Part shown: positions 17,703 to 21,565 of the stretch, piece after piece | Layout: each line of letters opens with the position of its first letter | Numbering within the stretch: the first letter of the stretch is position 1 | DNA from: an uncultured Lachnospiraceae bacterium | Lineage (GTDB): Bacteria; Bacillota; Clostridia; Lachnospirales; Lachnospiraceae | Direction of reading: 5' to 3' | Assembly (NCBI GenBank): GCA_905236025.1 | Contig: CAJOOB010000062.1 | Location: 1-32,629 of the forward strand | Length of the DNA stretch: 32,629 nt | The notes under the pieces: model-generated | Database searches by the model: none | What the model was told of the DNA's origin: nothing | The model's input: only the letters and a program-made list of their open reading frames with translations | Position numbers and translations under genes: made by a program

Positions 17703-19079
17703 ATGAATTCAGATACACAAATTGACATATTAAAATTAAAACACATTCACTTTATGGGTATTGGCGGAGTGAGCATGAGCGGGCTCGCGCAGATAGCCAA
17801 AAACCAAGGCATCACGGTAACAGGCTCCGATATTGCTGAAAGTGAACTCACTAAAAAGTTAGAAGATGAGGGAATCAAAGTTTTCTACGGCCAGAAAGCT
17901 TCCAATATATCAAAGGATATGGACCTGGTTGTCTACACGGCAGCCATCGGCCCGGATAATGAGGAGTTGGGTAAAGCAAGAGAATTAAATATTAATACAA
18001 TGGTAAGGGCCGATTATTTGGGGCTTTTAATGAAGATGGCAAATAATGTTATTTGCATTTCCGGTACGGACGGAAAAACAACGACAACGGCAATGATTTC
18101 CCACATCATGCTTGAAACCGATTTTGATCCGACCGTTATGGTGGGCGGTATGTATGATAAGATTGGTGGAAATTTGCGTATTGGCAAGTCTTCAAACATG
18201 ATTGTCGAGTCCTGCGAATATAAGGACAGCTTCCTTTCGTTTTTTCCGACAACCGCCGTTATTTTAAATATCAGGGAAGATCATCTTGATTATTTTAAGG
18301 ATATTAATCATATAAGAAGAAGTTTTAAGGCTTTTGCAGACAAAAAAGGCGTTAAGACGCTTGTTATATGTAACGAGATTGATAACGTTTCTGATTTTAC
18401 AAAGGATGCTTCTTATTCTGTTATTACCTACGGAAAAGGCGGTAAATACGAGGCCTGCGACATTACTTTCGACGAATTTGCAAGACCTTCCTACACGCTT
18501 TTAGAAGACGGTAAGGAGGTTACAAGACTCACGCTTGGTGTTACGGGCGAACATAATGTTACAAACTCACTTGCGGCAATTGCTGTTTGCAGAAACTACG
18601 GCGTTTCTTACGAATTAATTGAAAAGTTACTCCCTTCCTTCCACGGAACCGACAGAAGATTCCAGATTTTAGGCGAATGTAACGGCGCAACCGTGATTGA
18701 TGATTATGCTCACAACCCCGATGAAATCCGTGCTTCTTTAAAGACACTTTCAAAGTTTAAGCATAATGACTCATATGTTGTCTTCCAGCCTCACACTTAT
18801 ACGCGTACCAAATCTCTTTTAAAAGAATTTGCGAAGGAGCTTTCAAATGCCGATCATATAATTTTAGCCAAAATTTATCCTGCCAGAGAGAAGGATATTT
18901 ACAATATTTCATCACAGGATTTAGCCGATGAAATAATGGCTTTGGGGAAATCTTCCATTTATATGGAAACATTTGAGGAAATCGAAAAATATTTGAAAAA
19001 TAGTTGTTCACATGGCGACGTAATTTTGACAATGGGTGCCGGTGACGTTGTAAATATCGCAAAAGACCTGATTAAGTAA
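17703..19079 (+). CDS. murC: UDP-N-acetylmuramate--L-alanine ligase
   Basis: 458 aa; HFMGIGGVSMSGLAQIA, ISGTDGKTTTTAMI, IDDYAHNPDEI. Confidence 0.95.
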   Translation: MNSDTQIDILKLKHIHFMGIGGVSMSGLAQIAKNQGITVTGSDIAESELTKKLEDEGIKVFYGQKASNISKDMDLVVYTAAIGPDNEELGKARELNINTMVRADYLGLLMKMANNVICISGTDGKTTTTAMISHIMLETDFDPTVMVGGMYDKIGGNLRIGKSSNMIVESCEYKDSFLSFFPTTAVILNIREDHLDYFKDINHIRRSFKAFADKKGVKTLVICNEIDNVSDFTKDASYSVITYGKGGKYEACDITFDEFARPSYTLLEDGKEVTRLTLGVTGEHNVTNSLAAIAVCRNYGVSYELIEKLLPSFHGTDRRFQILGECNGATVIDDYAHNPDEIRASLKTLSKFKHNDSYVVFQPHTYTRTKSLLKEFAKELSNADHIILAKIYPAREKDIYNISSQDLADEIMALGKSSIYMETFEEIEKYLKNSCSHGDVILTMGAGDVVNIAKDLIK

Positions 19080-19094
19080 AGTTTACATATTTTT

Positions 19095-19145
19095 AATCCA
19101 CATACCGTATGTTGAAAACACATAAAAGTATGTGGATTATTTTTT
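19095..19145 (+). terminator. probable intrinsic terminator of murC
   Basis: Perfect 11-bp inverted repeat AATCCACATAC (19095-19105)/GTATGTGGATT (19128-19138), followed by A and six T. Arms contain one-mismatch DnaA-box-like 9-mers. Confidence 0.55.
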
Positions 19146-19162
19146 GAGACATACATCTTTTT

Positions 19163-19246
19163 TTATCCACATTTTTTCTGTGATTCGTAATTATGCAACA
19201 TAAATTCTCCACGATTTCCACACTTTCCACAACGTCACTTTTCACA
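19163..19246 (+). promoter_or_regulatory. DnaA-box-like cluster upstream of the DnaD-like gene
   Basis: TTATCCACA at 19163-19171 (perfect). ATTTCCACA 19214-19222, CTTTCCACA 19223-19231 and CTTTTCACA 19238-19246 each differ by one base from TTWTNCACA; TTCTCCACG 19205-19213 is weaker. Confidence 0.5.
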
Positions 19247-19357
19247 GTGTTTTCGGGACTTTTTGGGCATTTTTTCACTTTCATTTTAAAAATTTTTGTG
19301 TTATATTGTTTACACGTTAAGAATTTTATCGGTGCACCTTCTTAACACCGAATCAGT

Positions 19358-19425: not shown

Positions 19426-20547
19426 ATGAATAACACTATTACATTAAACAATGAGACTAAGGCGTCTTATACCCTTGTTTCAAATACCTTCATTGAGGAA
19501 TACATGCCTCATGCAAGTGGTGAATATGTAAAAATATATTTGTATATTCTCAGGATTTCTTCTAAAGGAATCAGTGAATTTACACTCGGTCAGATGGCAG
19601 ATGCTTTTGGTCAGACTGAAATGGATATTGTCCGCGGCCTTAAGTATTGGGAAAGACTCGGACTTTTGGAACTCAAGTACGATGATTACAAGTCCCTTTC
19701 GGCCATCACCTTATCTGACATTAAACAAAACAAGTTCGTCTCTTATGTTTTACTCGACAGCGAAAGGGCAGATGTAGATGTTATGCCTGTTACTCCTGTT
19801 AAGGAAAACGTGCAAACTCCTAATATCATTACAGAGGCTGAACCTGTTAAAAATACAGTTCCTGAAAAGAAACTGTCAACAGAACGCGTCGCAGAACTTT
19901 CTGCAGACACAACCATCAAGGATCTTCTCTATCTCGCCGAAGAATACCTTGGAAAGACTTTATCTCCTGTGGAATCAGAGACAATACTTTACTTCTATGA
20001 TACTTTGGGATTTTCTGCAGAACTTATCGAGTATCTTATTGAAAGCTGCGTCTCAATGAACCGCAAGAATATAAAGTACATCGAGCGTGTGGCCATTTCA
20101 TGGGCCGAAGACGGTGTAAAGGACGTTGCAGCAGCCAAAGCACACAACCTCGCATATAATCAATTATGCTTTTCTATCCTCAAGGCTTTCGGGCTTACGG
20201 GAAGAACAATGGGCGAAGCTGAAAAACAATTTGTGCTTAAATGGAGAGACGAATACAAATTTGATTCGAGCGTTATCCTTTTTGCATGCAACAGAACAAT
20301 TACAACCATCTCAAAGCCAAGTTTCCAGTACACGGATTCAATTCTCGAAAACTGGAAGAAAGCAGGTGTAAAGACTTTAGAAGACATTGAATCTGCTGAC
20401 AAGATTTACATCAGCAGCAAGAAGAAAGCAAGCGCTGTTGCTGCTCCTGTCGGCAAGCCGAAGACCAGACCGGTCTTCTCAAATTTCGAGCAACGCTCAT
20501 ACGACTCTAGCGAGCTTGAGAAGTTGCTTCTTAAGAAAAATAAATAG
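19426..20547 (+). CDS. DnaD/DnaB-like primosome protein (tandem DnaD-type C-terminal domains)
   Basis: 373 aa; winged-helix-like N-terminus; two DnaD/DnaB_2-like segments (LLYLAEEYLGKTLSPVESETILYFYDTLGFSAELIEYLIESC..YIERVAISWAEDGV and LCFSILKAFGLTGRTMGEAEKQFVLKWRDEYKFDSSVILFACNRT); followed by the loader gene. Confidence 0.82.
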   Translation: MNNTITLNNETKASYTLVSNTFIEEYMPHASGEYVKIYLYILRISSKGISEFTLGQMADAFGQTEMDIVRGLKYWERLGLLELKYDDYKSLSAITLSDIKQNKFVSYVLLDSERADVDVMPVTPVKENVQTPNIITEAEPVKNTVPEKKLSTERVAELSADTTIKDLLYLAEEYLGKTLSPVESETILYFYDTLGFSAELIEYLIESCVSMNRKNIKYIERVAISWAEDGVKDVAAAKAHNLAYNQLCFSILKAFGLTGRTMGEAEKQFVLKWRDEYKFDSSVILFACNRTITTISKPSFQYTDSILENWKKAGVKTLEDIESADKIYISSKKKASAVAAPVGKPKTRPVFSNFEQRSYDSSELEKLLLKKNK

Positions 20548-20557
20548 GGAGGCTTAC

Positions 20558-21565
20558 GTGAAACTCACAAATTCTCAATATAATTCCATTATGACGGAAT
20601 ATTCAGATACGAGATTTATGCATCTTCACGAATTGGACGAGAGGCTTGCTAAAATTTATGGCAAGTACCCTCGTCTGAAAGCCATACGTGAAACAATTGC
20701 TTCACTTTCCGCATCCTGTACCATCGAGGCCATCCAAAACGGCGAATCGATACAGGATGCTAAATTGCGTTTAAGGGAAAAAATTCTGGAATTAAAGGAA
20801 GAAGAAAACCTTATACTTGTTTCAGCAGGCTTAACAGAAGATGATTTACAACTTAAGTATACCTGTCCAAAATGTAAGGATACGGGGTATATCGGAAATG
20901 AACAGTGTATTTGTCTTAAAAACCGCATCATTTCTGAATTGTACACAAAATCGAACCTGCAGGATACAATGAAGGATGAGAACTTTGACACATTTGATTA
21001 TTCATATTACAGCAGATCTTTTATTGACAGCGATACGGAGACGGACGCCTATACAAATATTAAAGGCATTGTCTCTTCGTTGAAAGATTTTGTCACAACT
21101 TTTGATAATCAAAATCCGAAAAAAAATTTTTTGATTTGCGGAAAAGCGGGTGTGGGCAAGACTTTTTTAAGCAATTGCGTTGCAAAAGCCATGATTGACA
21201 CATCTCATTCTGTTATTTACCTTCCGGCCATTAAACTCTTTAATCTTCTCTCCGAAGAAAAGTTCCAAAAGGGCGGAAATGAGGGCTCTGAGATTGGATT
21301 ATCCTCTTACATTTATCAGTGTGATTTGCTTATTATTGACGATCTTGGAACCGAACTTGTTAACTCATTTACAATTTCAGAATTATTTAATATAATAAAT
21401 GAGCGTGGGCTTTTAAAAAATTCCACTATAATATCTACAAACCTTGGACTTGCAGGGCTTGAGGATGTTTACTCCGAGAGAATTTTTTCAAGACTCACCA
21501 TGTACGACATACGAAAGATTTTCGGACCTGACATTCGTATGCAGAAAACTTTATCCAATAAATAA
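20558..21565 (+). CDS. DnaI/DnaC-like replicative helicase loader, AAA+ ATPase
   Basis: CPKCKDTGYIGNEQCIC Cys cluster; Walker A CGKAGVGKTFLSNC; Walker B LLIIDDLG. Start taken as GTG 20558 behind AGGGAGG; the longer ORF overlaps the upstream gene. Confidence 0.88.
   Translation: MKLTNSQYNSIMTEYSDTRFMHLHELDERLAKIYGKYPRLKAIRETIASLSASCTIEAIQNGESIQDAKLRLREKILELKEEENLILVSAGLTEDDLQLKYTCPKCKDTGYIGNEQCICLKNRIISELYTKSNLQDTMKDENFDTFDYSYYSRSFIDSDTETDAYTNIKGIVSSLKDFVTTFDNQNPKKNFLICGKAGVGKTFLSNCVAKAMIDTSHSVIYLPAIKLFNLLSEEKFQKGGNEGSEIGLSSYIYQCDLLIIDDLGTELVNSFTISELFNIINERGLLKNSTIISTNLGLAGLEDVYSERIFSRLTMYDIRKIFGPDIRMQKTLSNK

Follow-up and report, generated by a model that had tools for sequence, protein, structure and literature searches.

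A degenerate DnaA-box array between murC and dnaD belongs to a conserved element that may regulate the dnaD-dnaI operon in Lachnospiraceae

Why do sequences resembling DnaA boxes line up between murC and the genes for a DnaD-domain primosomal protein and a helicase loader in an uncultured Lachnospiraceae bacterium? An earlier note on the stretch of DNA analyzed here (32,629 nt, hereafter the window) had offered two answers: that DnaA controls the expression of the primosome loader, or that the site titrates DnaA in the manner of datA or DARS. Comparison with relatives, in which both the arrays and their fixed distance from a predicted promoter are kept, gives strong support to the first answer and weakens the second. 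On balance, we lean towards the region being a DnaA-box regulatory element of the dnaD-dnaI operon, shared by Lachnospiraceae and related families and degenerate in this genome. The features concerned are collected in Table 1; the helicase-loader gene lies directly behind dnaD, with a GTG start placed at 20558 from the sequence.

Table 1. The murC-dnaD intergenic region and its neighbours, in window coordinates.
Feature	Position	Strand	Basis or remark
murC, upstream of the element	17703..19079	+	TIGR01082 equivalog, 449.6 bits
murC terminator hairpin with TAATCCACA on each arm	19094..19139 (arms 19094-19105 and 19128-19139)	+	fold
Perfect DnaA box TTATCCACA	19163-19171	+	motif match
Abutting boxes TTCTCCACG-ATTTCCACA-CTTTCCACA	19205-19213, 19214-19222, 19223-19231	+	9-bp period; triple p 0.0005 in shuffles
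Two-mismatch box CTTTTCACA	19238-19246	+	weak, may be chance
Extended -10 (TGTTATATT) of predicted dnaD promoter; -35 poor	19299..19307	+	position conserved relative to the boxes
Gene for DnaD-domain primosomal protein	19426..20547	+	TIGR01446 100.8 bits, PF07261 148.9 bits
Gene for DnaI/DnaC-type helicase-loader ATPase	20558..21565	+	NF005304 331.9 bits

The array is real though degenerate, and it is a member of a strongly conserved element. Every 9-mer that the earlier note had named is present at its coordinates, and the three that it had described as contiguous do abut one another, with two mismatches to the box in TTCTCCACG and one each in ATTTCCACA and CTTTCCACA. The one-mismatch boxes that it had seen in the arms of the murC terminator (19094-19102 on the plus strand, 19131-19139 on the minus strand) were both located, inside a strong hairpin (-17.8 kcal/mol, z -5.3 by folding). 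The strict motif TTWTNCACA is not enriched over the whole window (4 found, 4.8 expected) and occurs only once within the array. The 346-bp intergenic region, by contrast, holds six boxes with at most one mismatch to TTWTCCACA, against 0.71 ± 0.82 in 2000 dinucleotide shuffles of that region (p 0.0005). The intergenic region also has one head-to-tail triple at a 9-bp period, allowing up to two mismatches per box (p 0.0005 in the shuffles); no other is present anywhere in the 32.6-kb window. The excess lies in near-matches and their arrangement rather than in counts of the strict motif. No Rfam match to a structured RNA was found in the window, and the array itself is not predicted to fold (z 0.01). 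Taken alone, the window holds a weak, degenerate member, and the interest lies in the family-wide element.

Comparing the region across related genomes, as the earlier note had proposed, revealed far stronger box arrays. Our sample comprised the regions upstream of DnaD homologues in relatives together with 80 named loci, all or nearly all from Lachnospiraceae; boxes were counted in the 77 loci at which murC precedes dnaD and compared with 630 kb of flanking sequence, a generous control since the flanks are mostly coding DNA. Perfect DnaA boxes occur at 9.84 per kb in the 77 intergenic regions versus 0.064 per kb in the flanks, with 226 of the 232 on the coding strand, and the repeat unit is exactly TTATCCACA, the canonical DnaA box. 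Boxes abut at a 9-bp period in 63 of the 77 loci, 50 having two such clusters, while 14 lack a 9-bp tandem; none was found in any flank segment. The commonest box spacings are 9 bp (141 cases) and 12 bp (39 cases). The first cluster (cluster A), which often reads TTATCCACATTATCCACAnnnTTATnCACA, begins immediately after murC, overlapping the terminator, and the second (cluster B) lies roughly 100-190 bp beyond it. The window's terminator hairpin with its boxed arms is the counterpart of cluster A, and its abutting triple is that of cluster B, the last box being 70 bp from the -10 as it also is in relatives.

The element is widespread within the family. Of 200 family genomes, 114 contain the exact 18-mer TTATCCACATTATCCACA and none contains its backward reading. 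When 30 of its sites were sampled at one per genome, 17 fell between murC and dnaD, 10 at NlpC/P60 genes and/or hpf, one at dnaA and two elsewhere. Outside Lachnospiraceae, several families of the order also keep the element. The array is absent at murC in 27 loci sampled from further clostridial families, at which murC does not precede dnaD, and in four genomes with murC and dnaD apart (G048, G050, G052 and G054) it stands at neither gene, a pattern compatible both with an operator and with a murC-linked site.

The 3' end of murC carries a related signal. Among the 81 conserved columns of the MurC end, codon bias is strongest in four adjacent ones, which read TTG TTG ATA ACT in relatives, with ATA used in 76% of sequences versus 21% expected. 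This stretch includes most of the reverse one-mismatch box TTATCAACA, and the signal co-occurs with tandem arrays (Fisher p 0.0003, uncorrected for kinship). In the murC of the window the synonymous box signal has been lost, though it is conserved in relatives. Over the last ~110 nt of murC, loci L048-L127 show a strong synonymous-site constraint that spells TTGTTGATAACT, including the rare ATA codon.

Cluster B stands in register with a predicted promoter. In most loci an extended -10 (TGnTATAAT) lies downstream of it, as TGTTATATT does in the window, although a plain sigma-70 scan did not report this predicted dnaD element. Across 59 loci thinned for similarity, the distance from the last tandem box to the -10 hexamer is mostly 47-49, 57-60, 66-71 or 76-79 bp; it exceeds 130 bp in seven. 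A gap of 66-71 bp is found in 52% of loci, versus 5% (at most 17%) after shuffling of the downstream sequence. The distances are best described by a period of 10-10.5 bp (R 0.78, versus 0.60 for 9 bp), and none of 5000 jittered sets attained the observed periodicity, which may nevertheless stem in part from the gain and loss of 9-bp units. Further loci, including some from two other families, have distances mostly of 46-49, 60, 66-70 and 79 bp, with some exceptions and some larger values. The -35 hexamer follows TT[TC]TC[TA]; it agrees with TTGACA at two to four positions and hardly ever has G at the third. DnaA boxes are found near a promoter, in excess of chance and at a fixed geometry to it, as is expected of a DnaA-regulated promoter, the promoter itself being predicted. 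Three smaller observations concern the same DNA: the word TTCTCWTTT occurs near the -35 in 20 of the 77 murC-dnaD loci, the word TTTACATAA occurs in 24 of them (1.0 per kb versus 0.006 per kb in the flanks), and in the window a small hairpin, TCGGTG...CACCGA (19329-19351; -7.2 kcal/mol, z -2.8), lies in the predicted dnaD 5' leader.

Based on this comparison we can present a rough proposal for how the element might work. DnaA would bind the contiguous head-to-tail boxes between murC and dnaD, with the promoter-proximal cluster about 49, 59, 69 or 79 bp before an extended -10 that has a weak -35; because the cluster-promoter distances are fixed, bound DnaA would occupy a fixed helix face relative to RNA polymerase. 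Placing the start of the -10 at -12, we infer box centres near -65, -75, -85 or -95, on one face of the helix and in the geometry of an upstream activator. The fixed distance of the array from the dnaD promoter suggests that DnaA controls the loader genes, and DnaA bound there would most likely activate dnaD-dnaI transcription: activation is probably a better description than repression, since the boxes precede the promoter instead of overlapping it, and its -35 is poor. In B. subtilis, DnaD interacts with DnaA and inhibits the cooperative binding of DnaA to DNA, so that the arrangement would form a feedback loop in which the supply of helicase loader is tied to active DnaA. With only one perfect box, affinity in the window's own genome may be low.

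The idea bears on how initiation is controlled in Firmicutes, where the matching of replication initiation to growth is only partly understood. If DnaA controls the dnaD-dnaI promoter, the supply of helicase loader in a dominant gut family would be linked to initiator activity, with the initiator controlling the supply of both its own loader and its anti-cooperativity partner. Roseburia, Blautia and Coprococcus offer culturable species in which to test the hypothesis, and the abutting 9-bp arrangement is also relevant to the packing of DnaA on duplex DNA.

A second recurrent tandem array of DnaA boxes is found downstream of genes for NlpC/P60 cell-wall hydrolases, upstream of hpf, or both (L151, L152, L154, L155, L156, L174, L177, L185, L186, L188, L192, L193, L195, L196 and L198). 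It often takes the form of TTATCCACA, about 40 bp and then TTATnCACnnAGTTATCCACATTATCCACA, and the genes downstream vary (hpf, truA, mecA). No obviously fixed distance to a promoter was seen by eye for the array upstream of hpf. A degenerate counterpart, TTTTCCACTTTTTCCACT, lies some 200 bp before hpf in the window's own genome (L004, contig C39, 2110-2127); allowing up to three mismatches, this counterpart and the window's array are among the seven best tandem matches in the genome. More tentatively, we can envisage that Lachnospirales possess a small conserved DnaA regulon outside oriC, comprising the murC-dnaD and NlpC/P60-hpf sites, and that a DnaA assembly on abutting boxes could serve as a helix-phased activator of the loader operon.

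Control of replication genes by DnaA is already known, from the autoregulation of dnaA, from dnaB and dnaQ in C. crescentus and from the DnaA regulon of E. coli (PMC8203912, PMC11317965). Those systems likewise have DnaA boxes upstream of the promoter of a replication gene. The arrangement described here, known from sequence, differs in its dnaD-dnaI target, in its abutting 9-bp boxes and in its helix-phased upstream position, and dnaD-dnaI is not mentioned as a target in the review among these sources. A literature search that took in few subscription papers returned nothing on DnaA boxes in Lachnospiraceae or ahead of dnaD or dnaI, and no report of abutting 9-bp arrays or of the NlpC/P60-hpf site; the novelty of these findings is provisional for that reason.

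Outside oriC, B. subtilis has six clusters of DnaA boxes (DBCs; PMC5295017), and the boxes described here could similarly serve mainly to bind and titrate DnaA, with their position before dnaD being incidental. The resemblance is real in that the element has several boxes (at least three), is intergenic and lies away from oriC. Moreover, cluster A is tied to the murC 3' end and its terminator, and it persists where the gene order has changed: one locus (L153, in G030) has a permease-like gene (AI-2E family by eye) between murC and dnaD with the boxes directly behind murC, and G046 retains boxes behind murC only, with dnaD elsewhere. The variable neighbours of the second array, behind the NlpC/P60 genes, point the same way. 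However, a site that only absorbs DnaA could lie at any distance from a promoter, yet cluster B keeps a fixed one in most loci, and the distance to dnaA, on which dosage depends, is not conserved. Unlike the DBCs, the murC-dnaD element is found family-wide at one gene pair and in register with a predicted promoter. We consider titration an unlikely main function, though it may be an added role of the same boxes and is perhaps the better account of cluster A and the NlpC/P60-hpf site.

The more specific suggestion of a titration site like datA or DARS found no support. The E. coli sites datA, DARS1 and DARS2 are also clusters of DnaA boxes outside oriC, but the distance of the murC-dnaD element from oriC is not conserved. 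From the dnaD locus to dnaA it measures 46 kb (G057), 139 kb (G005), 239 kb (G035), ~280 kb (G062) and 882 kb (G061), and such wide variation over five genomes argues against a site whose action depends on its position.

If the element is a dnaD-dnaI operator in relatives, the copy in the window might still be a decayed, non-working relic. Its genome retains one perfect box in the array, has lost the murC 3' signal and lacks the exact 18-mer altogether. We judge such decay improbable, as the triple, its 70-bp distance to the -10 and the boxed terminator have been retained. The second array, upstream of hpf, has likewise been kept in degenerate form, pointing to a change in box preference and not to decay.

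The simplest reading of the array, from box identity and target gene, is that DnaA would be its binder. The 9-bp period does call for comment: box spacing in the oriC loci examined in these genomes is mostly 11 or 22 bp, and E. coli DnaA prefers pairs of boxes 2-3 bp apart (PMC11317965). Furthermore, the preference for A or T at box position 3 showed no co-variation between oriC and dnaD loci. Both observations would suit a different protein, but we think one quite improbable, as relatives repeat precisely the canonical DnaA box, boxes spaced at 12 bp in cluster A leave between them the 3-bp gap that DnaA of E. coli tolerates, and the target gene encodes a partner of DnaA.

Finally, densely packed boxes in one orientation, followed by AT-rich DNA, might recall a replication origin or second origin, but this can hardly be the case, as GC skew in the complete chromosome of Blautia parvula is negative on both sides of dnaD and positive from dnaA, 0.88 Mb away (with one 20-kb exception beyond dnaA), and in the window's own genome a different contig carries dnaA with box pairs of its own. 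With the skew switching at dnaA and not at dnaD, we rejected oriC at murC-dnaD. In C. difficile, oriC lies at rpmH-dnaA-dnaN and has a DnaA-trio and a DUE (PMC7561715), and clostridial origins of this type share their box consensus with the element. A scan for DnaA-trios, which in most relatives had too little power to tell oriC apart from other DNA, gave runs of at most two units behind boxes at murC-dnaD in relatives and up to four units in the dnaA-dnaN gap of the window's own genome. In one relative (L183), the region upstream of dnaA has an exceptional number of perfect boxes, with several 9-bp tandems, on both strands.
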